Part shown: positions 42,936 to 57,853 of the stretch, piece after piece
Layout of the letters: each line of letters begins with the position of its first letter
Position numbering within the stretch: the stretch's first letter is position 1
NCBI GenBank assembly: GCA_017539025.1
Contig: JAFYHT010000007.1
Coordinates: forward strand, 1-64,000
Length of the DNA stretch: 64,000 nucleotides
Source: Erysipelotrichaceae bacterium
GTDB taxonomy: Bacteria; Bacillota_I; Bacilli_A; Erysipelotrichales; Erysipelotrichaceae
Direction: 5' to 3'
Translations under genes and position numbers: made by a program
The notes under the pieces: generated by a model
What the model saw: the letters and a program-made list of their open reading frames with translations, nothing else
Told to the model about the DNA's origin: nothing
Databases searched by the model: none

Positions 42936-43892
42936 TTAGCGCATTGATTTATCGTACGGCTGACCGGAAGCCTTCGGCGCATGGTCATGTTTTGACGTGA
43001 CAGCCAGAGCGACCAGCGTGATGATGAATGGAAGGCTCTTATAGAAAGCCGCAGGAAGACCTAAGTTGTTCAGGAAAGGAATTCCTGAATAAGCATTGGC
43101 GATCGTCTTGCAGAAAGCGAAGAACGCCGCTGCACCAAGCAAAGGCAGAGAACGCCACTGACCGAAGATCAGGACTGACATCGCCAGATAACCGTAACCA
43201 CCGACAGTTTGCGAATAGTGAGTCGCAACCGGAATGATGTACATCAGACCGCCCATACCGCCGATGAAACCGGCAATGATCAAAGCAGCATATCTGTATC
43301 TCTGAACATTGACACCGAGTGATTCGGCAGCCTGAGGATTCTCACCACAGGCACACATTCTTAAACCGAATCTGGTCTTGCTGAGAACGATCGCGGAAAT
43401 GATGAAGATCGCGATACCGATATAGTTGGTGATATAAGTCCTTGTGAAGAACATATCGCCGATGACAGGGATGTCGCCCAGTACCGGAACTTTCTCGATC
43501 AGGAAATCATTCCTGATGGAAAGGTGCTCGGAACCATCCTGAAGGACTCTGGCAAAGAAGACACAGAATGCCGGAGCGAATGTGTTCATTGCCATACCGA
43601 CGATCGTCTGGTCGGCATTCAGATTGATCGATGCCACTGCAAGCAAGAGCGTCAGCAATACACCCATGACACCCGCAAACAGCAAGGAGATGATCAGTCT
43701 CATCTGACCGGCAACAACGCCATCCAGCCATTGCAGACAAAGCACACCCCACATACAGGACCACACCATGACGGAGTCAAGACCCATGTGGATGACACCG
43801 CTTCTCTCAGAGAACATACCGGAGATCGATACTACCAGTAATGGAGTGAAGAAATACATGAAATATCTTGCGATGAAATATAACATTTCCAT
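42936..43892 (-). CDS. Nucleoside ABC transporter permease (second subunit)
   Basis: 318 residues, about eight membrane segments. The ISGMFSERSGVIHMGLDSVM start and AADQTIVGMAMN / FGLRMCACGENPQAAESLGV motifs are typical of the NupQ/YufQ-type permease that pairs with BmpA-like binding proteins. It follows the first permease after one base. It is the last gene of the transporter operon. Confidence 0.93.
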   Translation of the reverse strand: MEMLYFIARYFMYFFTPLLVVSISGMFSERSGVIHMGLDSVMVWSCMWGVLCLQWLDGVVAGQMRLIISLLFAGVMGVLLTLLLAVASINLNADQTIVGMAMNTFAPAFCVFFARVLQDGSEHLSIRNDFLIEKVPVLGDIPVIGDMFFTRTYITNYIGIAIFIISAIVLSKTRFGLRMCACGENPQAAESLGVNVQRYRYAALIIAGFIGGMGGLMYIIPVATHYSQTVGGYGYLAMSVLIFGQWRSLPLLGAAAFFAFCKTIANAYSGIPFLNNLGLPAAFYKSLPFIITLVALAVTSKHDHAPKASGQPYDKSMR

Positions 43893-43893
43893 A

Positions 43894-45018
43894 CTATTTA
43901 AGCTCCTCTCCGGTCACCTTATTGATTTCTTTGGTCTGTTTGATCAGTGCTTTTTCAATCATCTGTTTCAGGAACAGTGAGAACGCAGCGAAATAAATGA
44001 TAACGGAAGTAATAACGGAAACGATCTCTCTCTGGAAACCGAAGATCTGCATGTAGTTGCCGCCGACTGTCAAAAACGCAAGGAACAGTGCACCAAAGAT
44101 CGCACCGATCGGTGAGTTGTTCGCAAGACAGCAGACAGCGATACCATTGAAACCTTCAGCTGCCAGTCCTTCCTTCATTGTGATATAAGTACCGGAAACA
44201 GACAGGTGTGTCAAACCACCTCCCAGTCCGCACAAAGCACCGGAAAGTAAGATCGAAGTCATGATATTCTGTTTTGACTTGATACCGGCATATTTGGAAG
44301 CATCCGCATTCTTACCGCAGGCTTTCAATTCGTAACCCAATAACGTCTTTTCCATCAATACCCAGCACAGGATCGCAACGATTATGGCGATGATGATACC
44401 GATATCAGCCGTTCTGTTCTGTGTCAGAGCCGGCATGAATCCCTGTGGCAGTTTGCATGGTGCAGGAACTGCTCTGGTCTGACCTTTCAGAGGGTCGTAG
44501 CAGTATTCAGAGATCCAGTGCATGATGTAGTACATTTCAATGTAGTTGAACATGATCGTACCGATGACGACGTTGACATTGAAATATGCCTTCAGGATGC
44601 CCGGGATCAATGCCCAGGCAGCACCGGCGATCGTTGCGGCGATCAATGGAACGATCCAGGACAATGGAGTCGGCAGATCCTTGGCATAATATAATGCCGT
44701 CAGGATGGCAGCCAATGCTCCGACAGAATACTGTCCGGGACCGCCGATATTGAAGATACCTGCCTGGAACGCAACACACATCGCAACACCGGTACAAAGG
44801 ATCGGCGTAGCGAAATAGAACAGAGTTCCCAGATTCTTCATTCCTCCCATCTGGAAACCGCCGGTCACAAGCGTTGTGAATGCGGCGAGACCCTTGGATG
44901 GGTTGGTAAGCATCAGAACGATAAAGGCAATGATCAAGCCACCGACGATAGCGATCAGGGAAGACAGAAGACCTGTATAATCAGAAATGTTGAATTTCTT
45001 CTTTGCTTTTACACTCAT
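43894..45018 (-). CDS. Nucleoside ABC transporter permease (first subunit)
   Basis: 374 residues with about nine membrane segments; CVAFQAGIFNIGGPGQYSVGA and GYELKACGKNADASKYAGI mark NupP/YufP-type permeases. It overlaps the ATPase gene by four bases. The two permeases and the ATPase form the importer fed by the lipoprotein encoded at 46633. Confidence 0.93.
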   Translation of the reverse strand: MSVKAKKKFNISDYTGLLSSLIAIVGGLIIAFIVLMLTNPSKGLAAFTTLVTGGFQMGGMKNLGTLFYFATPILCTGVAMCVAFQAGIFNIGGPGQYSVGALAAILTALYYAKDLPTPLSWIVPLIAATIAGAAWALIPGILKAYFNVNVVIGTIMFNYIEMYYIMHWISEYCYDPLKGQTRAVPAPCKLPQGFMPALTQNRTADIGIIIAIIVAILCWVLMEKTLLGYELKACGKNADASKYAGIKSKQNIMTSILLSGALCGLGGGLTHLSVSGTYITMKEGLAAEGFNGIAVCCLANNSPIGAIFGALFLAFLTVGGNYMQIFGFQREIVSVITSVIIYFAAFSLFLKQMIEKALIKQTKEINKVTGEELK

Positions 45019-46553
45019 GATTCTCTCCCCTCTCTCTTGACACCTGCCATGTACAGACCGACCTCTTCGACTGTCACGTTCTTCGGATCGAGGTTACCCA
45101 TGATCTCTCCTTCAAACATGACAAGGATCCTGTCGGCCACATCCATGACTTCATCAAGTTCAAATGACATCAGAAGGACTGCCTTGTCTTCATCACGCTG
45201 CTCAACGAGCTGTTTGTGAATGAACTCGATCGCACCGACATCCAGACCTCTGGTCGGCTGTACAGCTACCAGAAGATCACAGCCCTGATCGATCTCTCTG
45301 GCAACGATCGCTTTCTGCTGGTTACCACCGGACATCGATCTTGCCATAGTGATCTTACCCTGACCGGAACGGATATCGAATTTGTCGATCAGTTCATCGG
45401 CATACGTATCAAATTTACCGAATTTCAAGAAACCGCCTTTGGAAACGAAATCCGGCTTAAAATAGTTCTTCAAAGCGAGATTGTAAGACAGAGGATAATC
45501 CAGGATCAGACCGTATTTATGTCTGTCTTCCGGAATATGAGACATGATCAGATTTCTTTCTCTGATCGATTTCTTCGTATAATCGACACCATTGATCGTA
45601 ACAGTTCCTTCGTTGATCGGCATGATACCGGTCAGACCGTAGATCAGTTCGCTCTGGCCATTTCCATCAATACCTGCGATCGCAACGATCTCGCCTCTTC
45701 TGACAGAGAAAGAAACGTCATTGACGACCTTCTTTTTGGTCTCGTCATTGATCATCGTCAGGTGGTCAACCTTCAGTACTTCTTCCTTTGGCTCAGCCGG
45801 TTTCTTTTCAACATGGAAGTTGACCTCTCTGCCAACCATGAGTTCGCCCATCTGGGTCGTCGTCGTTTCAGCTGCATTCAAAGTCTGGATCAGCTTTCCA
45901 CGACGCAAGATCGTAACTCTGTCTGAAACTCTCTTTATTTCCTCGAGCTTATGAGAGATGAACAGGATGGTGTGGCCTTCTTTTGCCAGACCCTTCATGA
46001 TCTCCATCAGCTCGTCGATTTCCTGCGGAGTTAAAACAGCAGTCGGTTCATCAAAGATCAGGATCTCAGCTTCTCTGTAAAGCATCTTCAGGATCTCACA
46101 GCGCTGCTGCTGACCGACCGTGATGTTTTCGATCAAAGCATCCGGATCGACAGCCAGACCATACTTCTGTGACAATGCGACTACTTTCTTACGGCAGCTG
46201 TCCATATCCAGGAATGCACCCTTTACAGTCTCACTGCCCAAAATGATATTCTGCAATACTGTATAATTCTGTACCAGTTTAAAGTGCTGGTGCACCATAC
46301 CGATACCAAGCTCGGTCGCAACACGCGGGTTGGTGATCTTTACTTCTTTTCCCCTTATTGAGATTGTACCTTCTTCAGGTGTATACATACCGAAAAGAAC
46401 ACTCATCAGTGTGGACTTACCCGCGCCGTTTTCTCCAAGCAAGGCATGGATCTCTCCTTTGCGGATATCCAGGCTGATATCGTTACAGGCGATAATGCCC
46501 GGGAACTTTTTGGTGATGTGACGGAACTCAATAATGTTTTCCGTATTTTCCAT
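45015..46553 (-). CDS. Nucleoside ABC transporter ATPase (two ABC domains)
   Basis: 512 residues with two ABC domains, as in NupO/YufO and sugar importer ATPases. First domain: GENGAGKSTLMS, Walker B ILIFDEPTAVLTP. Second domain: GIDGNGQSE (a changed Walker A, usual in this family), SGGNQQKAIVAREI, and Walker B DLLVAVQPTRGLD. The order binding protein, ATPase, permease, permease is standard. GAAAGGAAAAGAGT is the ribosome-binding region, after a strong hairpin. Confidence 0.95.
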   Translation of the reverse strand: MENTENIIEFRHITKKFPGIIACNDISLDIRKGEIHALLGENGAGKSTLMSVLFGMYTPEEGTISIRGKEVKITNPRVATELGIGMVHQHFKLVQNYTVLQNIILGSETVKGAFLDMDSCRKKVVALSQKYGLAVDPDALIENITVGQQQRCEILKMLYREAEILIFDEPTAVLTPQEIDELMEIMKGLAKEGHTILFISHKLEEIKRVSDRVTILRRGKLIQTLNAAETTTTQMGELMVGREVNFHVEKKPAEPKEEVLKVDHLTMINDETKKKVVNDVSFSVRRGEIVAIAGIDGNGQSELIYGLTGIMPINEGTVTINGVDYTKKSIRERNLIMSHIPEDRHKYGLILDYPLSYNLALKNYFKPDFVSKGGFLKFGKFDTYADELIDKFDIRSGQGKITMARSMSGGNQQKAIVAREIDQGCDLLVAVQPTRGLDVGAIEFIHKQLVEQRDEDKAVLLMSFELDEVMDVADRILVMFEGEIMGNLDPKNVTVEEVGLYMAGVKREGRES

Positions 46554-46632: not shown

Positions 46633-47805
46633 TTACTGCTCGTAGTAAGTAACGTTGACGTACTTGTACTCGATCGGAGCAACAGACGGAGAAGTTGTTG
46701 CTTCTGTCGGAAGAGTGTTGTGAACAGCGATAACCTGCTGCTTGACAGCATTGTATTCTTCCTCAGTGAAGACATTCCAGTTCTCAGCTCTGTATGGGGC
46801 AAGGATTGAAGCATCTTCAGCAGCACCCATTCTGATCAGACCTGCATCTGTGTAAGCAGCCCAGTCAGCACCACCTGCATAAGCAGCCTTAACAGCTCTG
46901 TAAATAGTGATCTCGAGTTCCTTCATAGCAGAAGTGATGAAGATCGGCTCATTTTCAGCGCCATCAGCAGCTCTGGTGAAGTATTCATCAGTATCAACAC
47001 CGACGATCTTTCTGCCTTCGCCATCTTTCGCAGCCTGCAGAACTGAGTAAACGATGGAACCACCACAAGAGAAGATAACTTCTGTGCCATTGGTGTACCA
47101 TTCAGAAGCACGAGTAACGATATCAGGTGTCTGATCGAATGTGCCTGTGTAGAAGTACTTCATATCGATTGCCTTTTCAGCAAGACCGAGTTCTTCAGCA
47201 GCATCGTTCGCACCAGCTACGAAACCGTAACCGAATCTGACAACTGCCGGAACAGCCATACCACCCATAAAGGCGAGGTTTCTGTAACCGTCTTTGACAA
47301 CAGCGTAACCAGCCATGTAACCACAATCCTGTTCAGCGAATGTGATCATAGCCAGGTTGTCCTGATGATCTAATGAATCATCTACACCGTCGTAGTCATA
47401 GTCGATGTTGTAAAGGTCATCAGCATCAACGAAGATAACCTTGACATTCGGATAGTTAGGAATTTCCTGGCACAGTGCAGCATCCCAAAGGAAGCCAACC
47501 GCAACCAGTACATCAGCAGTCATCTGATTGACAGCCTGTTCGAAAATAGCAGTTCTGGAAGCATCATCTGAGCCTGCAGGCTGTAAGTAAGTGTACTTTA
47601 AGCCATTCTCTTCACAGTAATCTCTGATACCGTAGAATGAGTGCTCGTTGAAGCCGCCATCATAGATAGAACCTAAGTCAGCCAGGAATACGACATCGAA
47701 ATGTTCGCCTGTAGCTGCTGGCTCGCCGCCTTCTTCCTTCTTAGCACAGCCGAATAAGCTGCAAGCGAGAAGAACAGCGAGAACTAACGTAAGAAATTTC
47801 TTCAT
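46633..47805 (-). CDS. BmpA/PnrA-family nucleoside-binding lipoprotein
   Basis: 390 residues. Signal peptide with lipobox SLFGC (Cys20). The body has VFLADLGSIYDGGFNEHSFYG, ADVLVAVGFLWD, VDADDLYNIDYDYDGVDDSLDHQDNLA, GYMAGYAVVKDGY and FSCGGSIVYSVLQAAK, all typical of the PnrA-type purine nucleoside receptors. It captures nucleosides outside the cell for the ATPase and permeases that follow. AAGGAG precedes the ATG by about 9 bases. Confidence 0.93.
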   Translation of the reverse strand: MKKFLTLVLAVLLACSLFGCAKKEEGGEPAATGEHFDVVFLADLGSIYDGGFNEHSFYGIRDYCEENGLKYTYLQPAGSDDASRTAIFEQAVNQMTADVLVAVGFLWDAALCQEIPNYPNVKVIFVDADDLYNIDYDYDGVDDSLDHQDNLAMITFAEQDCGYMAGYAVVKDGYRNLAFMGGMAVPAVVRFGYGFVAGANDAAEELGLAEKAIDMKYFYTGTFDQTPDIVTRASEWYTNGTEVIFSCGGSIVYSVLQAAKDGEGRKIVGVDTDEYFTRAADGAENEPIFITSAMKELEITIYRAVKAAYAGGADWAAYTDAGLIRMGAAEDASILAPYRAENWNVFTEEEYNAVKQQVIAVHNTLPTEATTSPSVAPIEYKYVNVTYYEQ

Positions 47806-47953: not shown

Positions 47954-48610
47954 TCATTTTGCTGTGAAGAGCTCACCCTGTCTGTCGACATATTCTAATG
48001 TCTTATCCAGGACATAGCCAAGGATGTATCCCGTACACAAAACGTCGACGATCGTACCGATCCCGATCACTCCCTTCATCGCCCATCCGATCAGGAAAAA
48101 CGCGGCATCGGAGATCATCTGTGTATACTTGATATCCAGTTTGATCAGATCCGTTAAGAAGATCGGAACGAACTGGAAACAGCCGATCCCCATCTTGCAT
48201 CCGATACTTAAAGCATAACCGATCGAAGTCGTGATCAGACCTGCCAAAAGGATCAGAAGTTTTGTCAAAAGCGAGATCGAAGTAAGCGGGAAATTGCTTC
48301 GCAACATTCCCTCAAACAGGTCGATCAGAGGCCCTCCCAGAAACATACCGATGATCGTACCGATACCCAGATGCTTTCTTTCAAATAAGAAGATCAGTAT
48401 CGTCAGTATGACATTGCATATGGTCGAAATCTGTCCATAAGACAATCCGCACGCATTATGTAAGCCGTCGACGAATACGCTGATCGGATCGGTACCCAGT
48501 CCACAGGCATAGTAGCAGCCTACGCCGAAAGAAGACAATACAGTACCGACAATACTGATCGCGATCCTGATAAATAAAGCTCTGTAATTGAGATCCTTCA
48601 GTTTATCCAT
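47954..48610 (-). CDS. YczE/YitT-like membrane protein
   Basis: 218 residues from the ATG at 48610 (a GTG two codons earlier is possible). Five or six membrane segments with Gly/Cys-rich turns (FGVGCYYACGLGTDPISVFVDGLHNACG; SIGCKMGIGCFQFVP) match the YczE-type integral membrane family, of unknown function. It overlaps the third nucleoside phosphorylase gene by 8 bases and ends the catabolic operon just before the importer operon, so a role in nucleoside or base transport is plausible. Confidence 0.8.
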   Translation of the reverse strand: MDKLKDLNYRALFIRIAISIVGTVLSSFGVGCYYACGLGTDPISVFVDGLHNACGLSYGQISTICNVILTILIFLFERKHLGIGTIIGMFLGGPLIDLFEGMLRSNFPLTSISLLTKLLILLAGLITTSIGYALSIGCKMGIGCFQFVPIFLTDLIKLDIKYTQMISDAAFFLIGWAMKGVIGIGTIVDVLCTGYILGYVLDKTLEYVDRQGELFTAK

Positions 48611-49424
48611 TTTCACGAATATCTTCTAAATCAGGAAGCTTATCGATGATCTCGATCGCCCTCAAAGTGATCTTGGTCATCAGCTCCACTCTTTTGGCAT
48701 AATCGGACTGATTGCTGGTAGACATCGAGCCATAGGTCTTGCCCAGATAGTCTCCGCACATCAGTATCGTACCGGTACGGATACCGCCTAAAAGCGATCC
48801 CACCGTAAACAAAGCAGAAGATTCATTCTCGACCGCCAGTACTCCGGCATCTTCCCAGACCTTGATCCTTTCAAGTGTTCCCTCTTGCCCGCCATGGGCA
48901 CCCGGAGATTCAAGATAGAAAGAATCATGAGAACGGATGATGCCGAGATATGGCTTGACACCGTATTCGATACAAGCCTGCCTCAAAGCACAGACGACAT
49001 CCACATCGGCAACAGCCGGATATTCCAAAGGGATATATTCCTTGGAAGCACCCTCTCCTCTGACTGCTGCAGTCGCAATGACGAACGCATCTGATGGAAG
49101 ATTTGGCTGCCAGGATCCGGAAGTCCCCATACGGATCATCGTCTTGACACCGAGATGATTGAGTTCTTCCACTGCTACCGATACTGCCATGGCACCCATT
49201 CCGGTACACATGACCGATACCGGTACATCGTGATAGGTTCCGGTATATGTCGGATTGCCTCTGGAAACAGCTGCCAGCCTTGACTCATCAAAATACTTTG
49301 CGACCATCTCGCATCTTGCGGGATCAGCAGGCAGGATGAAATGCTTTCCGCAGTCATTCTCATCCAGACCGATATGCCACATCTTGCCGTTATTGTTGGT
49401 CAGCTTGACGGACTTATATTTCAT
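48603..49424 (-). CDS. Nucleoside phosphorylase, paralogue 3
   Basis: 273 residues of the uridine/purine nucleoside phosphorylase-I family. The phosphate loop reads LPADPARCEMVA (usual GDP replaced by ADP), MIRMGTSGSW keeps the Arg, and VENESSALFTV keeps the ribose-binding Glu. The base-binding region SHDSFYLESPGAHGG differs from true uridine phosphorylase (compare 55476-56222), so the base specificity is likely different. It overlaps paralogue 2 by 11 bases. Confidence 0.88.
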   Translation of the reverse strand: MKYKSVKLTNNNGKMWHIGLDENDCGKHFILPADPARCEMVAKYFDESRLAAVSRGNPTYTGTYHDVPVSVMCTGMGAMAVSVAVEELNHLGVKTMIRMGTSGSWQPNLPSDAFVIATAAVRGEGASKEYIPLEYPAVADVDVVCALRQACIEYGVKPYLGIIRSHDSFYLESPGAHGGQEGTLERIKVWEDAGVLAVENESSALFTVGSLLGGIRTGTILMCGDYLGKTYGSMSTSNQSDYAKRVELMTKITLRAIEIIDKLPDLEDIRENG

Positions 49425-50217
49425 ACTCTTCTCCCTTGATCAGCTTGGACATTGCCAGTGTCGCGATATGGATGGTATCCATGATCTTATTCTGATAATC
49501 CTTTTCATAATCCATCGCCTCACCTGTTGCCAGGTTGTCAGTTACGACATAGATGCATCCTGCCTGTAACTGCAGTATTGAAGCAACCGTATACAATGTC
49601 GCACATTCGTTGTCAACGCAGGCAACACCGACTTTCTGCCACGGAGCGATCCTTTCTTCCACACCGTCATGCGCAAAAGGAGATTCCAGGAATAAACCAT
49701 CATGCGTCCTTGTGATACCTGTTTCCACTTCGATGCCAAGTTCCTTGGCACTCTGCAACAGCGCAAAGAAAGCATCCAGATCGCAAACTGCCGGATACTG
49801 GATATTGACATATTCCAATGTCGCACCCTCACATCTGCAGGCACCGATCGGAACAAAGATCGTACCCGGTTTGATATTCGGATCGATGGCGTAGCAGGAA
49901 CCGACCTTGATCATCTTCCTGCAATCGATGTGTCTTAACTCTTCCACAGCGATCTCAGTCGGCATACAGCCGTTGCCGATCGACATGCATGACATACGTA
50001 CGCCATGGCACATACCGGTATAGCTGATATATTCTCTGTGGAAAGCCTGTCTTTCAGCGCTGTCGAATGTATCCTTGATCAGTTCCACTCTTTCGAGATT
50101 ACTTGTGAGGATGCAACCCTCACCGATCTGAGTTTTATCGATACCCAGATGATGGACCTTGTTTCCTTTTTCCAGCTGAGGAACGGAGTCAAAACCATTT
50201 TTCACCATGTCTGCCAT
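49414..50217 (-). CDS. Nucleoside phosphorylase, paralogue 2 (divergent)
   Basis: 267 residues. It has the same fold as its neighbours, but the phosphate loop reads LTSNLERVELI (no GDP) and the RVGT motif has become MIKVGSC, replacing a phosphate-binding Arg by Lys. The ribose-site Glu region (VDNECATLYTV) is kept. It may have another activity or act together with paralogues 1 and 3. AAGGAG precedes the ATG, which overlaps the stop of paralogue 1 by one base. Confidence 0.85.
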   Translation of the reverse strand: MADMVKNGFDSVPQLEKGNKVHHLGIDKTQIGEGCILTSNLERVELIKDTFDSAERQAFHREYISYTGMCHGVRMSCMSIGNGCMPTEIAVEELRHIDCRKMIKVGSCYAIDPNIKPGTIFVPIGACRCEGATLEYVNIQYPAVCDLDAFFALLQSAKELGIEVETGITRTHDGLFLESPFAHDGVEERIAPWQKVGVACVDNECATLYTVASILQLQAGCIYVVTDNLATGEAMDYEKDYQNKIMDTIHIATLAMSKLIKGEEYEI

Positions 50218-51050
50218 TATCTGATCACTCCTTTCTTCTCCATTTCATCAAGGATCTCTGTTGCCCTGACAGCGATCTTTGAACATACCAGGATCCTCTT
50301 GTCCATGAAGTCATCCTCAAATGCCTCCGGATAAGCTTCTTCGGATTTCGGACCGGTATAGTAGATCGTATCCTCGACCATTGAAGTATGAGAAACACAG
50401 ATGGAACCGCATCTCAAACCAAGCTGCGGACCGACAGTGAATAAAGTGGCTGACTCATTCTCGACCATCTTGACACCGGCATCGACCCAAGGTTTCATCC
50501 TCTCATAGGTATCGATCATCGCCGTTGAAGTCTCACGGTAATATGAATCATGGGCGCGGTACAAGCCAACGATCGGGTCTTCACCGAATTCCTTGCAAGC
50601 CATGATCAGAGCCTTTGTGACATAAGGATCGGCAATCGCCGGATACTCCGGTGGGACATACTCGTAGGAGTTGCCGTCCCCTCTGACACAGCCTGTCGCA
50701 ATGATGATCCTGCCAGGCTGATAGTCTGTCAGCAAAGCTGCACCGGTACCGACTCTGATCAGATTCTTCATACCGATCTGGCAACACTCTTCCGCAACCG
50801 TAGATACTGCTAAAGGACCCATACCGGAAGATACGACAGAGATCGGCACATCGTTTGGTGTTACACCGCTGTAGGTATAATAGGTTCTCTGACCATTGAC
50901 GAAATGTGCTTCCTTGAAACAGCCGGCAATGACCTTTGATCTTGCCAGATCACCCGGCATCAAAACGGTCGGCGCGATATCACCTTCTTTGAGACCTGTA
51001 AAATAAAGCCTTCCCTTCGAATCAAGATATTTCTTTTCCCTGACTCTCAT
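50217..51050 (-). CDS. Nucleoside phosphorylase, paralogue 1
   Basis: 277 residues. Phosphate loop LMPGDLARSKVIA, LIRVGTGAAL and VENESATLFTV are close to the family consensus, with HDSYYRETSTAMID in the base-binding part. It breaks a nucleoside to base and ribose 1-phosphate; which nucleoside is not clear. AAGGAGG directly precedes the ATG, which follows the amidohydrolase stop. Confidence 0.9.
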   Translation of the reverse strand: MRVREKKYLDSKGRLYFTGLKEGDIAPTVLMPGDLARSKVIAGCFKEAHFVNGQRTYYTYSGVTPNDVPISVVSSGMGPLAVSTVAEECCQIGMKNLIRVGTGAALLTDYQPGRIIIATGCVRGDGNSYEYVPPEYPAIADPYVTKALIMACKEFGEDPIVGLYRAHDSYYRETSTAMIDTYERMKPWVDAGVKMVENESATLFTVGPQLGLRCGSICVSHTSMVEDTIYYTGPKSEEAYPEAFEDDFMDKRILVCSKIAVRATEILDEMEKKGVIR

Positions 51051-52388
51051 TTAAACCTCCTTCACATAACCTGTTCTGACATTGAGTTTATGGATCAGTT
51101 CATTACATTTGTTCAGAATGAACTGTTCATCGAAATTCTGTATCCTCTTGTTTCTGACCTTCAAAGCACCCGCAACGAATACCGTATCCACCGCATGACC
51201 GGTACCGGCATACAAGAGATTGCCGATCCTGTGATCTCTGTCAGTCAAAGACAGGTCGTCTTCCATATTGACTAAAACAAGATCCGCCAGATTTCCTTCC
51301 TTGATCTCACCAAGGTCATCATAGCCAAGAGCTTTTGCGCCATTGACTGTCATCATCTTGAATGTCGTACCTGCATCCATGACTGTCGGATCAAGAGTGA
51401 TAGCCTTTTGCAGATAAGAACCAGCCTTGCCTTCTCTGACCATATCCTTGGTACCGCTTGATGCCTCTCCGTCGCAACCCATCGCAACCGGAATGCCTCT
51501 TTGTAACATCTGAGCGATCTTAGGGATTCCATCCGAGATCTTCATATTGGTATTCGGACAATGTACCGGGATCGCACCGGTCTTTGCGATGATATCCAGT
51601 TCGTGATCGCTTAACCAGATGGAGTGTGCCAACAAGGTCTTATTGTCTAAAACACCGAGGTATTCAAGTGCCTCAGCTTCGCCACCCAGACCATATTCTT
51701 TCGCAACTCTTTCCGTCTCCATCTTTCCCTCACCCAGGTGAGTATGGAAGACAAGACCCTTGTCGTTTGCCCAGGCTTTCAAGGTCTTTGCCATGTTTGC
51801 AGAAACCGCAGGAAGACCAGCCGGTGCAGCAGAAGCTCTCATCAGTCCATGGTTCCTGCCATGACACTTGGCATAGACTTCTTCACATCTTCTGACCGCC
51901 TCATCCACCGATATGATCGGCGTTACTTCATTCTCCGGAACATCGGTCGTCGAAATGCCAAACGTTACTCTTACACCGGCATCTTCAAACGCCTGCAATG
52001 TCGCATCCAGGTGTTCATAACCGCCCATCTCATTGATGGTCGTCGTACCAAACCTCATCGCCGAAAGACATGACAACAATGTCGCATAGTAGTAATCCTC
52101 ATCTGTCATGTAGTCCTCAAAAGTAAACAGCCTCACCAGCCATTCTGTGATCACCAGGTCATCCAGCGGACCCTTGATAAAAGTCTGGTAGACATGAGAA
52201 TGACAATCCGTAAATCCCGGCAGCGCCAACATGTTGTGGGCATCGATGATCGTCGCCTCTGGGCACTCTTTCGGATCGATGTGATCAGCGATCTTTTTGA
52301 ACCTGTCCCCTTCAATAAGAATGTCCTTTGTTGCAGTCGACAGATCATCTAGATTGCCGACATCCGCATTTCTGATCAGAAAACTCAT
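51051..52388 (-). CDS. TRZ/ATZ-family amidohydrolase (deaminase-like)
   Basis: 445 residues from the ATG at 52388, with AAAGGAG upstream. Metal-dependent deaminase of the chlorohydrolase/guanine deaminase/MTA-SAH deaminase group: HSHVYQT (first two histidines), HTHLGEG, HSIWLSD, and GCDGEASSG carrying the catalytic Asp. It should remove an amino group or halide from a heterocycle. With the phosphorylases that follow, adenosine-like or modified nucleosides are likely substrates. It overlaps the nitrilase-like gene by four bases (ATGA). Confidence 0.9.
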   Translation of the reverse strand: MSFLIRNADVGNLDDLSTATKDILIEGDRFKKIADHIDPKECPEATIIDAHNMLALPGFTDCHSHVYQTFIKGPLDDLVITEWLVRLFTFEDYMTDEDYYYATLLSCLSAMRFGTTTINEMGGYEHLDATLQAFEDAGVRVTFGISTTDVPENEVTPIISVDEAVRRCEEVYAKCHGRNHGLMRASAAPAGLPAVSANMAKTLKAWANDKGLVFHTHLGEGKMETERVAKEYGLGGEAEALEYLGVLDNKTLLAHSIWLSDHELDIIAKTGAIPVHCPNTNMKISDGIPKIAQMLQRGIPVAMGCDGEASSGTKDMVREGKAGSYLQKAITLDPTVMDAGTTFKMMTVNGAKALGYDDLGEIKEGNLADLVLVNMEDDLSLTDRDHRIGNLLYAGTGHAVDTVFVAGALKVRNKRIQNFDEQFILNKCNELIHKLNVRTGYVKEV

Positions 52389-53140
52389 AATTGATCTTCT
52401 CCTTTGCATATATCCTTATAAGCAGCGGGATTCCTGTCCCGCATATAGTCTCTTTCATCGATCAGATCCATATCGATATCCACTTCACCGATCCCCTCTT
52501 CGTTCCTCTTCATCAGAAGCGATCTTCCGTGAGGATCATAGGCATAGATCATCGGGATCGGGTCACAGTAATGGGTACATCCTACGACGAAACATCTGTT
52601 TTCGATCGCTCTTGCCTTGGCGATCGTCGTCCACTCATCAAACTGCTGTTCATGCCACATCCCGGTGCCTACCGTATTGAACAGGATCCTGGCACCCTTG
52701 ATCGCCTCTATCCTTGCCACTTCAGGGAAATGAATCTCGTAACATAAGACGATCCCCATCTTTCCAAACGGCGAATCAAACGGTTCGATCTCCATCCCCA
52801 ACTTTGCGTGATTGTTTTTATCACCAAGCGTTAATGCAGTCTTGCAATGAGAATGGATGACGCCTCTTTCAGGATCGATGGCGTGGGTGTAGAGACTCTT
52901 TTCTTCTCCCTGGTCCTCGCTTCCGACAATGATCCACTTATCGTATTTCTTTGCCAGAGCAGAGGCTTCCTCAAGCCTTTGAGAAGGCAGATATCCTTCC
53001 GGAAAAACGACGATCTCGCCGTGAGATTGTTTCAGATACTCTTCCATCTGGACTATCTCATCAGCACATCGCTTTTCGCTTTTTCCGAAACCGACTCTGG
53101 GCAAAGGACAGACAAGGCTTACTTTAAAACGATCTTTCAT
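52385..53140 (-). CDS. Carbon-nitrogen hydrolase (nitrilase superfamily)
   Basis: 251 residues. The catalytic Glu-Lys-Cys triad lies in VVFPEGYLPS, HCKTALTLG and GIVLCYEIHFPE. Members include carbamoylases, ureidopropionase-like and omega-amidases; in a nucleobase operon an amide or carbamoyl hydrolase is plausible. It is the first gene of the operon, with AAGGAG at 53144-53149 (minus strand), directly after an intrinsic terminator in the leader. Confidence 0.88.
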   Translation of the reverse strand: MKDRFKVSLVCPLPRVGFGKSEKRCADEIVQMEEYLKQSHGEIVVFPEGYLPSQRLEEASALAKKYDKWIIVGSEDQGEEKSLYTHAIDPERGVIHSHCKTALTLGDKNNHAKLGMEIEPFDSPFGKMGIVLCYEIHFPEVARIEAIKGARILFNTVGTGMWHEQQFDEWTTIAKARAIENRCFVVGCTHYCDPIPMIYAYDPHGRSLLMKRNEEGIGEVDIDMDLIDERDYMRDRNPAAYKDICKGEDQL

Positions 53141-53312: not shown

Positions 53313-54302
53313 ATGAAAAAGAATAAAGTGATATTTGACTGTGATGTCGGCTGCGACGATGCCGTTGCGCTGATCTCCCTTTTACTGTCGGATAATGTCG
53401 AAGTGATCGCGATCACCTGTGTCAGAGGCAATATCCCTGTCGAAAACGTCGTCAATAACGCATTGAAAATCAGTGCCCTTTGCCATAAGGATGTCCCGGT
53501 ATATAAAGGTTGTAGCGAGCCGATGGTCAGGAATCTGATCAAAGGAAGAGACTACAACACACTGATGGAACGCATCCACATGGAGATCGACGGCAAGGAG
53601 ATCCTGATCCACGAAAAAGACTTCGATCTGCCTCTTGGGGAAAGGAAAGCGGAAGAGAAACATGCCTGCACCTATCTGATCGAAACCCTGATGAAAGCTG
53701 AAGAAAAAATCGACATCTGTGCAGTGGGACCACTGACCAATCTGGGTATGGCGTTAAGACTGGAACCGAAGATCGTTAATCATATCGGCACGATCTACAT
53801 CATGGGCGGCGGCCTCTATATCGGCAACCGTACTCCGCTTGCTGAAGCAAACTTCTACGATGATCCGGAAGCCGCCGAGATCGTACTGACGTCCGGCACC
53901 AAATGCCTGATCTGTCCGATCGAACCATGTGAAGAAGGTGCTACCTATACAAAAGAAGATCTCGCTGATATCAAAGGATGCAATAATCAGATATCCGACT
54001 TCCTGGTCAAAGAACTGCAAGGTTACATCGATCGATGCAACATCCTGTTCAATACAGACATCGATTCCTGCTGCGTCTACGACTATGCGGCAGTCGCACC
54101 GCTGATCGATGAATCCGTCATCACAGAAAAAAGAAAAGATATCGTCAGAGTCGATATCTCAGGCGGTATGGCAGACGGCCAGATGGTCGTCGACAGAAGA
54201 GGAATGTTCAACAACGACAGCAAAACAGAAGTCATCTATCACATGGATGCAAAGAAGCTGCATGAGATCCTGCTTCAAGAATTATCACAGTTCAGAGCCT
54301 GA
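53313..54302 (+). CDS. Nucleoside hydrolase-like protein, active-site His replaced
   Basis: 329 residues. Calcium-binding Asp cluster [20 protein letters not shown] and MGGGLYIGN are intact. The C-terminal HDP motif, which carries the catalytic His, is here VYDYAAVAP (CCVYDYAAVAPLID against [14 protein letters not shown] in the homologue at 22202). The Asp is kept and the His is Tyr. It may be altered in activity or specificity. GAGG lies upstream of the ATG, and the gene stands divergent from the operon of purine genes. Confidence 0.85.
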   Translation: MKKNKVIFDCDVGCDDAVALISLLLSDNVEVIAITCVRGNIPVENVVNNALKISALCHKDVPVYKGCSEPMVRNLIKGRDYNTLMERIHMEIDGKEILIHEKDFDLPLGERKAEEKHACTYLIETLMKAEEKIDICAVGPLTNLGMALRLEPKIVNHIGTIYIMGGGLYIGNRTPLAEANFYDDPEAAEIVLTSGTKCLICPIEPCEEGATYTKEDLADIKGCNNQISDFLVKELQGYIDRCNILFNTDIDSCCVYDYAAVAPLIDESVITEKRKDIVRVDISGGMADGQMVVDRRGMFNNDSKTEVIYHMDAKKLHEILLQELSQFRA

Positions 54303-54363: not shown

Positions 54364-55320
54364 TTAACTGATTTTACATTGTTGTTTCGATAGCTGATAC
54401 TCTTTGAAATCATAACCGAAGAAATCACAGGCTTCTTTTTCGGAAGAAAACAGACCCTTCGTCACAGTCTGAGTGACTGTATGAAAAATGCCGGAAAGTC
54501 TCTCTTCTTTTCTGCCCTGAATAACACCTTCTTTCATGCCTTTCTCATGACCTTCCTGCATGCCTCTTTCAAGGCCTTCCCGCAAGCCTCTTTCAAGGCC
54601 TTTTAATCTGGCTTTTTCCTCGATCTCTTCAAACGTCATTCTCGCCCTGATCTCCTTTGGATCTTTCATGATCTCTTTAACCTTATTTTCCAGTTCGCTG
54701 GTGAAATTGTCAACCGGATCGCCTGAGATAAGATATCTGATCAGATTGGCGACATTAGGAGAAATCTGATCAAGGACTTTGCTGGTCGTGTTGACCACGA
54801 TACATCTCGCACCATCATCATAATCAGGTGCTCCATCATCGTCTTCTCTCATGCGGAAACGATAGATCGGTCTGCCCAATTTAAATGGGTCGTAAGTACA
54901 GATCATGATGACATAACAGTTTTTCAATCTGCCGTACAGTTTTCCTTTGCTCATATCTTCGATGCTCATCATGGCGATATAGTATCGGATCCTGTGTTCC
55001 AGATCCTTATCTACATACGTCTGCATCTCAACACCATAAAGTTCCTTGTTGTTTTTTGCCATGACGTCAAATCTGACGGAACGGATATCTTTGGAAATAT
55101 CTATGCCGTTTTCTCCTTGGATCAGAGTCAGCTTGTCGATCTGAAAACCGAGGATCATCTCGATCAGCTTTTTTGCGAGTTTTGGATTTTTCTGTAATAC
55201 TCTGCAGAAGACAAAATTATCCGTAAACCAGCAGAACTTTTCCTGTTCATCTGAGCTCTGCTTTCGATCAGATACAGAGACATCTGTAATGACAACATCG
55301 ATCATATTTTCGTGATTCAA
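54364..55320 (-). CDS. Rpn-family PD-(D/E)XK nuclease/transposase-like protein
   Basis: 318 residues from a TTG start at 55320, which has an ideal AAGGAGG 8 bases upstream; an ATG 12 codons earlier lacks one. The PD-(D/E)XK core shows RFDVMAKN and YGVEMQTY (Asp85, Glu98, Gln100). Rpn proteins are recA-independent recombination-promoting nucleases, often in mobile, multi-copy families. The C-terminus (about 241-272) has octapeptide repeats such as GLERGLRE and GLERGMQE; at the DNA level a 17-bp stretch is repeated 24 bp apart. Confidence 0.88.
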   Translation of the reverse strand: MNHENMIDVVITDVSVSDRKQSSDEQEKFCWFTDNFVFCRVLQKNPKLAKKLIEMILGFQIDKLTLIQGENGIDISKDIRSVRFDVMAKNNKELYGVEMQTYVDKDLEHRIRYYIAMMSIEDMSKGKLYGRLKNCYVIMICTYDPFKLGRPIYRFRMREDDDGAPDYDDGARCIVVNTTSKVLDQISPNVANLIRYLISGDPVDNFTSELENKVKEIMKDPKEIRARMTFEEIEEKARLKGLERGLREGLERGMQEGHEKGMKEGVIQGRKEERLSGIFHTVTQTVTKGLFSSEKEACDFFGYDFKEYQLSKQQCKIS

Positions 55321-55416
55321 ATGTATTACCTCCTTGAAGGATAGAAAAGCCTTCATACATTATTCGCCGAAAATACATCGAATACCTAAATCTTTTTTCA
55401 GAAATTGATATTTTTC

Positions 55417-55475: not shown

Positions 55476-56222
55476 CTATTGTTTCATTTTGTCTTCTTCG
55501 ATCAGAGTCCTGATCGCTTCACAAGCAACTTCAACCGACTTTTCCATTTCAGTGAAAGCCATGATCGCACCTGCTCTGCACTTCCTGATCGATGAGATGA
55601 CGAATAAGGCAGCACATTCCATTTCCGAAGAAACGACATGCCCTCTTCTCCAGGCTTCCCAGCGTTCTCTGAGTCTTGCCTCAGCAGGCATGGTCTCCGG
55701 AGAATGCTGGCCATAGAAAGAATCCTTGGATTGCGTGATGCCTTCCAAGAAATTGTAACCCAGCTTTTCTGCCGCATCAGCCAGAGCCGCTGTGACATGT
55801 CTGTCGGCTACTGCCGGATACTCGATCGGGATATAGTGGATCGTAGTGCCTTCATCTCTGACTGCCGCATTGTTGATGACGCCATCCAGAGACTCATCAT
55901 ATGATTCATCACAGACTCTACCGGCTGTTCCGACTCTGATGAAAGTATCCGCACCGCATTTGATCAGTTCTTCCAAAGCTATCGCTGTCGAAGGACAGCC
56001 CATACCGGTAGATGTGACAGAAACTTTTTCCCCATTCAGATAACCTGTCCAGGTCTTGTGTTCCCTGTTGTGGGCGATCAGCTTGGGATCATCAAAATAA
56101 GAAGCGATCAGATCTGTACGGAACGGATCACCGGGAAGAAGCACATATCTTCCGACATCTCCCGGTCTGATCTGTGTATGATATTGAAGCTCAGCTTCCT
56201 TATCGAATACATGTCTTGTCAT
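55476..56222 (-). CDS. udp: Uridine phosphorylase
   Basis: 248 residues. Phosphate loop LLPGDPFRTDLIAS, FIRVGTAG, the base region ITQSKDSFYGQHSPETMP and EMECAALFVI match uridine phosphorylase. It turns uridine plus phosphate into uracil and ribose 1-phosphate. The cytidine deaminase gene directly upstream supplies uridine from cytidine. A terminator follows. Confidence 0.93.
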   Translation of the reverse strand: MTRHVFDKEAELQYHTQIRPGDVGRYVLLPGDPFRTDLIASYFDDPKLIAHNREHKTWTGYLNGEKVSVTSTGMGCPSTAIALEELIKCGADTFIRVGTAGRVCDESYDESLDGVINNAAVRDEGTTIHYIPIEYPAVADRHVTAALADAAEKLGYNFLEGITQSKDSFYGQHSPETMPAEARLRERWEAWRRGHVVSSEMECAALFVISSIRKCRAGAIMAFTEMEKSVEVACEAIRTLIEEDKMKQ

Positions 56223-56659: not shown

Positions 56660-57853
56660 TTACAACCACCTGAAGAATTCTTCAACGATATGCGTATGAT
56701 CGCCTTCAATGATCAGATGATGATTGCCGATCGATTCTCTTAAGAAGTAAGTGACCGGACGATCCATCTTCAGCTGAATCTGGGTACGGCAGAGATTGAA
56801 TTCGCTTAAGTTCTTCAATAATTCTGCCTTGGAAAGGAAGTATTCATTCATCAGACCATCACACTTGAAGACAGTGACAGGACCTTCCTTCAGTTTGCCT
56901 CTGAAAGCAACACCCAGCTGCGATTCAAAGTGAGTCATGATCTCAAAACTCTGCGGCATATTGATCGGCAATGTGCAATGCGCAAAGACGATCTCGTTGT
57001 TGTCGGTATCGATACGGCTCGGATTTGCCATGAAGACAGGCTCACCTGTCAGTTCACCAAGGACCGCCATAGAGATCAGTGCCGGAACATCACCCTCGCA
57101 GGATGCATAGATCCCTTCCGCATTCAGAATAGCCAGAGCAGCACAGCCCGTAGAATGAACGGTGTCCAGCAGATCGAAACATCTGACTGTTACGCCATTG
57201 AGCTCATACTTATCGACGATCCTTCTCAATGCTCCATAGATGCATAATGCTTCATGGACTTCTTTTTCGTCATAGCCCTTGGATCTGATCAGCTCAGTAT
57301 ACTGATTCTCTTTGTATTCTTTCTTTGCGATCTCCTCAAAGAACTCTTCCATTGGCACATCGATGATCTCGATATTGTTGTATTCTTTTGATTCATCCGC
57401 ATCGACATCGGAAGAGATCAGCCAATCGGAAGGCTTACCGACTCTGGCGATCTTAAATCCATCAAGCCTCTTTTTTGTCTTGAAGACCTGAGCGAGATCC
57501 TTCAGTCTTTGGGCAACGAATTCATCGGAACCGTGGATGATCTCACCCGGGAGATCATTCTGTCTCAGATAAGAAAGGATCTCCATGGAAGCTGCCAGTG
57601 AATTGTTGGCACCGGTCGTCAGAAGGAAGTAAGGCTGAGGAAGCTTGTCCATATCCTTTAAGAAGATACCTTCCGTACCGCCGCCGCCGATGAATTCGAC
57701 AGCCATGTCGTAGTCTTTGATATGATCGACATCTGTCACCTCAAAATCAAAACCCGTCAGTTCACTCAGCTTTTTCAGCCACGGAAAGTTTCCGTCATTG
57801 GCAATTGAAGCAGCTGCAGTCGCTGAAACAACATAATAAACACCTATTTTCAT
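56660..57853 (-). CDS. L-fucose isomerase-like protein
   Basis: 397 residues. The two-part Rossmann-like body and the C-terminal region (IYASCEGDVPALISMAVLGEL; a late GEPVFMANPSRID and FAHCTLPINMP) resemble the L-fucose/L-arabinose isomerase family, in which the C-terminal part binds a metal ion and the sugar. It heads the udp-cdd operon, which is an unexpected place for a sugar isomerase, so the substrate could be a pentose from nucleosides or something else. AGGAG lies 9 bases before the ATG. Confidence 0.75.
   Translation of the reverse strand: MKIGVYYVVSATAAASIANDGNFPWLKKLSELTGFDFEVTDVDHIKDYDMAVEFIGGGGTEGIFLKDMDKLPQPYFLLTTGANNSLAASMEILSYLRQNDLPGEIIHGSDEFVAQRLKDLAQVFKTKKRLDGFKIARVGKPSDWLISSDVDADESKEYNNIEIIDVPMEEFFEEIAKKEYKENQYTELIRSKGYDEKEVHEALCIYGALRRIVDKYELNGVTVRCFDLLDTVHSTGCAALAILNAEGIYASCEGDVPALISMAVLGELTGEPVFMANPSRIDTDNNEIVFAHCTLPINMPQSFEIMTHFESQLGVAFRGKLKEGPVTVFKCDGLMNEYFLSKAELLKNLSEFNLCRTQIQLKMDRPVTYFLRESIGNHHLIIEGDHTHIVEEFFRWL

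Follow-up and report, generated by a model that had tools for sequence, protein, structure and literature searches.

Two adjacent genes in the window (the whole 64,000-nucleotide stretch of DNA analysed here, from a rumen member of the Erysipelotrichaceae), NP_A and NP_B, probably encode partner subunits of a single hetero-oligomeric nucleoside phosphorylase, in which A would be the catalytic subunit and B a prozyme-like donor; we put the probability of this reading at roughly three in four. Comparison of their sequences shows that A and B are old paralogues: every examined genome with one also has the other, the two diverge in parallel, and the losses in their active sites are complementary. 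The locus contains the following features:

42936..45018, minus strand: two ABC permeases (42936-43892 and 43894-45018), named by sequence features rather than family search, syntenic in relatives
45015..46553, minus strand: ABC importer ATPase, named in the same way, syntenic in relatives
46633..47805, minus strand: PnrA/BMP-type nucleoside-binding lipoprotein of an ABC importer (PF02608)
47954..48616, minus strand: YczE-like membrane protein (PF02588, 27.6 bits against a cut-off of 24.3; NF052291, 66.4 against 205)
48603..49424, minus strand: NP_C, proposed self-sufficient phosphorylase of the same clade (PF01048, residue table, occurrence without A-B)
49414..50217, minus strand: NP_B, proposed non-catalytic donor subunit (PF01048, residue tables, AF2 monomer model)
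50217..51050, minus strand: NP_A, proposed catalytic subunit (PF01048, residue tables, AF2 monomer model)
51051..52409, minus strand: TRZ/ATZ-type amidohydrolase, probable purine-nucleoside deaminase (PF01979)
52385..53140, minus strand: nitrilase-superfamily hydrolase, accessory (PF00795)
53313..54302, plus strand: divergent nucleoside hydrolase (IUNH; PF01156, 257.7 bits)
55476..56222, minus strand: NP_D, ordinary uridine-phosphorylase-like protein of the S. pyogenes type (TIGR01718, 244.4 bits against 280.3)

The first-pass annotation had described three phosphorylase genes overlapping end to end, and this is accurate for A-B-C: NP_A and NP_B overlap by 1 nt (TAATG) and NP_B and NP_C by 11 nt. 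The nitrilase and deaminase genes overlap by 25 nt, NP_C and the YczE-like gene overlap by 14 nt, and the deaminase and NP_A abut with zero overlap. The motifs quoted at that stage are real (GDLAR in A, TSNLER in B, PADPAR in C; RVGT/KVGS/RMGT), and profiles bear out the deaminase, the nitrilase and the PnrA-type binding protein as companions; the YczE-like assignment holds only in part, as the protein barely reaches the PF02588 cut-off and lies below that of NF052291. NP_D, a cytidine deaminase and the nucleoside hydrolase belong to the cluster as well and had been missed. All three phosphorylase-fold proteins exceed the PF01048 cut-off of 25.1 bits (A 84.1, B 92.9, C 115.8) and miss the 280.3 cut-off of TIGR01718, the uridine phosphorylase equivalog (C 200.1, A 148.0, B 144.8). 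PF01048 has 12 matches in the source genome, 4 of them inside the window. Because the arrangement is kept in 10 of the 36 same-genus genomes searched (the copy in G015 is split across two contigs), it is beyond chance, and a trio that might have proved not to be conserved elsewhere does recur.

Nucleoside phosphorylases are textbook homo-oligomers with active sites shared across subunit interfaces. To our knowledge, the known S. pyogenes-type and other NP-I members are homo-oligomers that carry all of their active-site residues in one chain. By sequence, the closest solved relative for each of A, B and C is PDB 3qpb, the S. pyogenes-type uridine phosphorylase (NP-I), which has the same fold, a dimer-interface active site, and the motifs of A and C; in that enzyme the own-site and lent residues are in one chain, whereas here they are divided over two genes. 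What is lent is described for hexameric phosphorylases, where each active site borrows a His, which contacts the sugar 5'-OH, and an Arg, which contacts phosphate, from the adjacent subunit (PMC7271239, PMC3434127). In PcUP1 phosphate is held by Gly35, Thr107, Arg39, and Arg104, while the neighbouring monomer supplies His19 and Arg59, and activity falls when Arg39, Arg59, or Arg104 is changed to Glu in PcUP1/PcUP2 (PMC7271239); His4* and Arg43* of BsPNP233 are likewise lent by the neighbouring subunit (PMC3434127).

We counted the corresponding residues in E. coli UP numbering. Ordinary relatives keep H8, R48, G26, D27, R30, and R91 in 15 of 15 sequences. A keeps its own site: G26, D27, R30, R91, and T94 are present in 26/26 and E196 and E198 in 27/27, and the window protein has the GDLAR phosphate loop (G33, D34, R37), R99, T102, and E197-N-E199. 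Judged by the own-chain residues G26, R30, R91, T94, and E198, A has the make-up of a catalytic NP-I subunit. The residues it would lend to a neighbour are another matter: H8 is lost in 22/26 and R48 in 11/26, and at least one of the two is gone in 24/26, so that in those 24 A by sequence lacks the same-chain His and Arg of a self-sufficient homo-oligomeric NP-I enzyme. In window NP_A the lent His has become F17 and the lent Arg, R55, is still present, as R48 is in A of the window's genus generally; in the clade without R48 the His position holds F, R, Q, C, or H. There are two caveats to a dependence of A on B. The A proteins of loci L091 and L092, the only ones with both lent residues, need not depend on B, and where R48 is lost, the preceding position carries Arg in 10 of 11 rows and Lys in the other, which might substitute for it.

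B presents the reciprocal pattern. The two lent residues are kept without exception (H8 28/28, R48 28/28; H23 and R61 in window NP_B), and the residues of its own phosphate site are largely replaced: G26 is found in 0/28, R91 in 1/28 (Lys in 27), T94 in 6/28, and R30 in 16/28, the remaining 12 forming one clade with Q, E, D, L, or M at that position. In window NP_B the phosphate loop reads S39-N-L-E-R, the R91 equivalent is K104, and the T94 equivalent is Ser. By residue content B is thus not a catalytic NP-I subunit, since it does not hold the own-chain set G26, R30, R91, T94, E198, and the tree and residue table together show it to be, like a prozyme, a paralogue of its partner with catalytic residues lost. 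Simple decay does not describe its pocket: E198 is kept in 28/28 and Lys stands at 91 in 27/28, so the pocket may bind something. K104 and GxGCMP are conserved in B and differ from A and C, and the B alignment has 34 invariant columns among 25 sequences. AF2 monomer models of both proteins adopt the NP-I fold and match hexameric NP-I enzymes (A, pLDDT 81.9; B, pLDDT 89.7, Z about 32-33), and the H8-to-R48 spacing in the 26 A and 28 B sequences has the same length as in the S. pyogenes enzyme.

These counts are of rows that are not independent, 10 of them coming from one genus. We left out A_L067 and B_L067 (near copies of the L128 pair), oth_L003, oth_L005, and oth_L007 (far, on long branches), and oth_L076 (identical to oth_L038); A_L104, which is truncated, was counted at E196-E198 only; Cx_L127, an extra C-like protein, was tabulated apart from C; and the partial C_L058 of G015 was not used. 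The named loci L081-L089 duplicate ones already reached through G-handle genomes and were counted once, and L090, L094, L095, L097, and L100 stand in for their G-handle copies.

The pairing of A and B is strict. We searched 272 genomes from the family of the window: 16 have a strong match to A, the same 16 have a strong match to B, and none has one only (Fisher p = 3.7e-26, not corrected for relatedness). The pair recurs in Clostridia, with Bittarella massiliensis GD6, where it lies on NZ_LN908977.1, among the carriers, and in the family of Bittarella both genes are in the same 4 of 247 genomes; none of the 20 carriers over both families has A only or B only, and every locus with both genes has A immediately upstream of B. 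The weakest B matches (243-244 bits) are just above the best C match (238.6), so genomes carrying a more divergent B and no A may have escaped detection. A sample of the phylum and a sample of the class Clostridia contained no further A-B carriers. Because B is rare, most of the A-B diversity came from a pattern search, which favours its conserved GxGCMP motif.

In the tree, a single branch sets off each of A, B, and C from the rest (SH-aLRT 99, 97, and 99), and each clade has Erysipelotrichaceae and Clostridia members, in agreement with the earlier statement that they are not recent copies. The branch uniting A+B+C has a support of 86, and the tree leaves the branching order of the three unsettled. 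The A and B subtrees match, with a distance correlation of 0.970 over 26 loci, compared with 0.885 for A-C (14 loci) and 0.856 for A-deaminase (22 loci). Two enzymes in one operon would be expected to show strict co-occurrence and matched trees too; however, C, in the same operon, shows less of both. B evolves faster than A (distance ratio about 1.3), and all three genes are under purifying selection, with median dN/dS of 0.039 for A, 0.083 for B, and 0.072 for C (36 pairs each).

C stands apart. It keeps H8, R48, R30, R91, T94, and E198 in 21/21, and from these residues we propose that NP_C, a member of the same clade, works in the same pathway as a self-sufficient phosphorylase separate from A-B; NP_D has both own-site and lent residues. 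The phosphate-loop Gly of C is Ala in 12/21, window NP_C included. We do not claim a link between this change and A-B, since the Ala forms are all in carriers (12/12) but so are 5 of 9 Gly forms, and the four non-carriers are close relatives. A hetero-oligomeric phosphorylase, one of the possibilities raised in the first-pass annotation, therefore gains strong support for A and B from their constant pairing and reciprocal losses but not for C, which is present with the deaminase and YczE-like genes but without A-B in G004, G006, G017, and G032. As A-B also occurs without detected C (G269 and G284, both draft genomes), we discarded a single three-subunit enzyme as a general rule.

With respect to substrate, the deaminase is the commonest companion of A-B (22/26 loci). 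In nucleoside deaminases, HxH, a His, and an Asp bind metal and a Glu binds ribose. The motifs HxH, HTHLxEG, LAHS, and CDGEAS are present in 22/22 deaminases; the Glu of the window protein aligns with one of 4f0r, and Gln (4/22) or Asp (1/22) replaces it in others. This protein resembles the MTA/SAH and 5'-deoxyadenosine deaminases, which are TRZ/ATZ amidohydrolases. Among solved structures 4f0r, an MTA/SAH deaminase, comes closest (E 3.3e-45), and among NCBIfam models a 5'-deoxyadenosine deaminase scores highest, yet the protein misses the cut-off of each of the 25 NCBIfam models shown (PRK07228, 277.3 against 522; PRK15493, 131.1 against 779). A pathway for unusual nucleosides, the other possibility raised in the first-pass annotation, may exist, given the nearness to MTA/SAH deaminases. 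In L041 and L046 we found no nitrilase gene upstream of the deaminase, and in the Clostridia loci no homologue beside the deaminase, and we dropped the nitrilase as a core part. Base specificity could not be assigned by motif: A, B, and C are without the Gln/Arg pair described for uridine phosphorylases (PMC7271239), but those columns are gapped in the alignment and the S. pyogenes enzyme also lacks that Arg there, and we do not claim purine specificity. M197 of the uridine phosphorylase family is N in A (27/27) and C (21/21).

In the mechanism we propose, A and B would assemble most likely as an (AB)3 hexamer, a trimer of AB dimers. The A-side site would be completed by the His of B, contacting the sugar 5'-OH, and the Arg of B, contacting phosphate; the B-side site, without the phosphate loop and the phosphate-activating Arg, would be incapable of phosphorolysis, leaving one working site per AB dimer. 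B would be a donor pseudoenzyme like the trypanosome prozymes. More tentatively, the BMP-type ABC system might import a purine nucleoside, the adjacent amidohydrolase might deaminate it, and A-B might then convert the product to base and (deoxy)pentose 1-phosphate.

We considered several other explanations. A could be a self-sufficient homo-oligomer acting on 5'-deoxy or 5'-thio nucleosides, with B a separate nucleoside-binding or regulatory protein; loss of the His that holds the 5'-OH would suit such substrates, as would the likeness of the deaminase to 5'-deoxyadenosine and MTA/SAH deaminases, and A of the window's genus retains R48 (L091 and L092 retain both lent residues). We regard this as unlikely, because the other A clade loses the phosphate Arg too, with a variable His position, which a change of substrate fits poorly, and because it leaves unexplained both the strict pairing and the retention in 28/28 B proteins of exactly the two lent residues despite loss of their own phosphate site. 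Still less probable is a set of three independent homo-oligomeric phosphorylases, each of A, B, and C with a substrate of its own and B binding phosphate or another anion through its Lys and altered loop. Shared PF01048 membership, the NP-I folds of the A and B models, purifying selection on all three, and the conserved E198 and Lys of B are compatible with this, but the loop Gly of B is gone in every sequence and R30 in one clade, and A-only or B-only genomes would be predicted, whereas 0/20 carriers are such. Arg-to-Glu changes at the R30, R48, and R91 equivalents lower the activity of PcUP1/PcUP2 (PMC7271239), which also argues against it, although these are charge reversals and not the changes seen here. 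That B is a functionless duplicate in decay would accord with its lost catalytic residues and faster evolution, but we give it next to no credence: every carrier, in Erysipelotrichaceae and Clostridia loci alike, retains B, with dN/dS of about 0.08 and many invariant columns, and we set the idea aside on purifying selection.

A further alternative overlaps our preferred reading of A and B as one enzyme. B might be mainly regulatory within an A-B hetero-oligomer, its altered pocket binding a nucleoside or base and switching A. The B-specific K104 and GxGCMP would suit this, and trypanosome prozymes activate allosterically (PMC3663545), but regulation alone gives no reason for B to keep precisely the two residues lent to a partner, and we think it rather doubtful. 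A version combining both, in which A-B is an obligate hetero-oligomer that needs the His and Arg of the pseudoenzyme and the remodelled pocket of B, with its invariant Glu and a Lys where Arg is usual, is an allosteric sensor, making the enzyme both split and gated, is a tentative possibility.

The nearest parallels to a split A-B enzyme lie elsewhere. Trypanosomatid prozymes of deoxyhypusine synthase and AdoMetDC likewise pair a catalytic with a catalytically dead paralogue, active as a hetero-oligomer (PMC3663545), and arose by duplication; they belong to other enzyme families and another kingdom, and their effect is described as allosteric, whereas we propose that B lends two residues directly. 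An engineered hybrid PfPNP hexamer of native and M183L subunits, with alternating active and weak subunits, works (PMC7949152); it shares the idea of a mixed-subunit NP-I hexamer but is an artificial fusion of alleles of one gene, in contrast to natural, old paralogues. No natural heteromeric nucleoside phosphorylase appeared among the papers listed by our searches of the open-access literature (PMC).

To label both A and B uridine phosphorylases, as profile searches would suggest, is probably a mistake in each case. A natural pair with the catalytic half in one copy and the lent half in the other would offer a clean bacterial case of the passage from homomer to obligate heteromer after duplication. 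If the split and gated version were true, A-B would form a separate class, spread over gut Erysipelotrichaceae and Clostridia, in a family known for homo-oligomers.

The minus strand from 53140 down to 42936 carries, in order, a nitrilase-superfamily hydrolase, a TRZ/ATZ amidohydrolase (51051-52409, the deaminase below), the NP-I phosphorylases NP_A, NP_B and NP_C (A, B and C), a YczE-like protein and an importer. A and B overlap by 1 base, within TAATG, and B and C by 11 bases. The genes of this region considered here are as follows:

50217-51050, 49414-50217 and 48603-49424, minus strand: three NP-I phosphorylases, in gene order A-B-C
after C, minus strand: YczE-like membrane protein
last in the 53140-42936 cluster, minus strand: BMP/PnrA-type ABC importer
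starting at 53313, divergent from the cluster: nucleoside hydrolase gene
55476-56222, beyond the nucleoside hydrolase: fourth phosphorylase, followed by genes for a cytidine deaminase and an isomerase-like protein

There are 12 PF01048 matches in the genome. The nucleoside hydrolase is separated from the fourth phosphorylase by an ORF (54364-55356) which we take to resemble a PD-(D/E)XK nuclease-type transposase; because no homologue was detected in the regions from 20 relatives, it looks recently inserted. Upstream of the cytidine deaminase, and in several relatives also of the fourth phosphorylase, lies a gene (56660-57853) for a 397-aa protein. This protein has no Pfam match and a weak score against sulfoquinovose isomerase (74 bits; cut-off 700), and it may be a sugar isomerase for a nucleoside-derived pentose.

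Passages of the structural papers place the NP-I active site between two subunits, with most residues from one monomer and a His and an Arg lent by its neighbor (PMC7271239, PMC3434127). The lent His holds the sugar 5'-OH and the lent Arg the phosphate, as do His19 and Arg59 of PcUP1 (PMC7271239); the corresponding residues crossing the interface of BsPNP233 are His4* and Arg43* (PMC3434127), and in E. coli UP and PNP, too, the active site is described as built from two subunits (PMC7226091). We read these columns (E. coli UP numbering) from an alignment of A, B, C, and other relatives. B retains the lent His and the lent Arg in 28/28 sequences each, and has lost the loop Gly (0/28) and nearly always Arg91 (1/28, with Lys in 27); Thr94 is kept in 6/28 and Arg30 in 16/28. 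A has the loop Gly, Asp27, Arg30, Arg91, and Thr94 in 26/26 each and Glu196 and Glu198 in 27/27, with the lent His in 4/26 and the lent Arg in 15/26. Since the spacing between the two lent residues in A and B equals that of the S. pyogenes enzyme, these columns are independent of gap placement. All 21 C proteins keep His8, Arg48, Asp27, Arg30, Arg91, Thr94, Glu196, and Glu198, the loop Gly being present in 9 and replaced by Ala in 12; His8, Arg48, Gly26, Asp27, Arg30, and Arg91 are invariant in the 15 other relatives. The C loop reads PAD in 12/21 proteins, all from A-B carriers, and PGD in 5 A-B carriers and all 4 non-carriers.

Most likely, A and B pair into a dimer in which A's pocket contributes a phosphate loop and a catalytic Arg of its own and receives from B the missing His and, in A's second clade, also the missing Arg; B's own pocket lacks both phosphate loop and Arg. 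Should the usual trimer of dimers form, this would leave one working site per AB dimer and three per hexamer. Both models have the NP-I fold (pLDDT 81.9 for A, with two loops below 50, and 89.7 for B) and match hexameric phosphorylases. At the level of residues, three features count against a simple pattern of complementary losses: B keeps Glu198 (28/28), A's second clade has Arg (10/11) or Lys (1/11) immediately preceding the site of the lost lent Arg, and two A proteins of the 26, L091 and L092 alone, have both lent residues and are complete. The nearest working analogies to A-B are trypanosome prozymes (PMC3663545) and a PfPNP hexamer engineered as a hybrid (PMC7949152). The fold and chemistry are known; an active site split between paralogues was not found described in the open-access library searched, nor was any natural heteromeric nucleoside phosphorylase, preprints and most subscription papers being outside this scope.

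The trio is an A-B pair plus a separate C. We compared gene order across 20 regions from relatives; those closely related at this locus and carrying a name are Erysipelotrichaceae MAGs, of which most come from the ruminant gut. The complete A-B-C cluster is found in 10/36 same-genus genomes searched (G000, G005, G009, G011, G013, G015, where it is spread over two contigs, G021, G029, G031, and G033), four (G004, G006, G017, and G032) lack both A and B and carry the deaminase, C, and YczE, and G035 and G038 have a remoter A-B pair (44-51% and 37-41% identical to the window's A and B) located away from C. Among 272 genomes of the window's family, A matches of 447-467 bits occur in 16, the best non-A match being a C at 309 bits. 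B matches of at least 243 bits occur in the same 16, a narrow threshold against the best C (238.6), with the calls confirmed by gene neighborhood. In Bittarella's family, A and B likewise share the same 4 of 247 genomes. A scan of named genome contigs yielded 29 loci, with A-B pairs also in MAGs of Oscillospiraceae and Clostridia, in Bittarella massiliensis GD6, and in Candidatus Schneewindia gallinarum. In the Clostridia loci, the gene order is often A-B-deaminase. The sole B observed without an adjoining A (L090, also present as the copy L063) lies where its contig ends. Two A-B pairs of different clades apparently surround one deaminase in G285 (L128 on C69, L090 on C90) and in G284 (L129 on C106), the second pair in each being interrupted by a contig end. 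At L127 (13630-15336, G1122), two neighboring C-type phosphorylases adjoin a full A-B pair with the same deaminase and YczE; one is just 47% identical to the window's C and, by sequence, appears to be a further paralogue of the clade.

In a 98-row tree, a single branch separates each of the groups A (28 rows), B (29 rows), and C (21 rows) from the rest (SH-aLRT 99, 97, and 99), and the three plus one extra C-like protein join at support 86, their branching order not being settled by the tree. The same groups appear in the A and B subtrees, and A-B pairwise distances correlate at 0.970 over 26 loci (0/999 permutations as high). At the 14 loci with C, the correlations are 0.972 for A-B, 0.885 for A-C, and 0.911 for B-C; at the 22 with the deaminase, they are 0.975 for A-B, 0.856 for A-deaminase, and 0.846 for B-deaminase. 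Median dN/dS over 36 pairs is 0.039, 0.083, and 0.072 for A, B, and C, ratios that are rough because dS is high (medians 1.4-1.8; 1, 4, and 3 saturated pairs, respectively).

Beside the ribose Glu, Asn stands in place of Met197 in A (27/27), C (21/21), and B (16/28), and Met is present in 14/15 other relatives; Asn at this position is a possible mark of changed sugar specificity for the whole A/B/C clade. NP_C, complete save for the loop Gly, could act alone. Because the nearest solved structures to the deaminase are MTA/SAH deaminases, its metal-ligand motifs are present in 22/22, and a BMP-type importer goes with the cluster, a route of import, deamination, and phosphorolysis is plausible.
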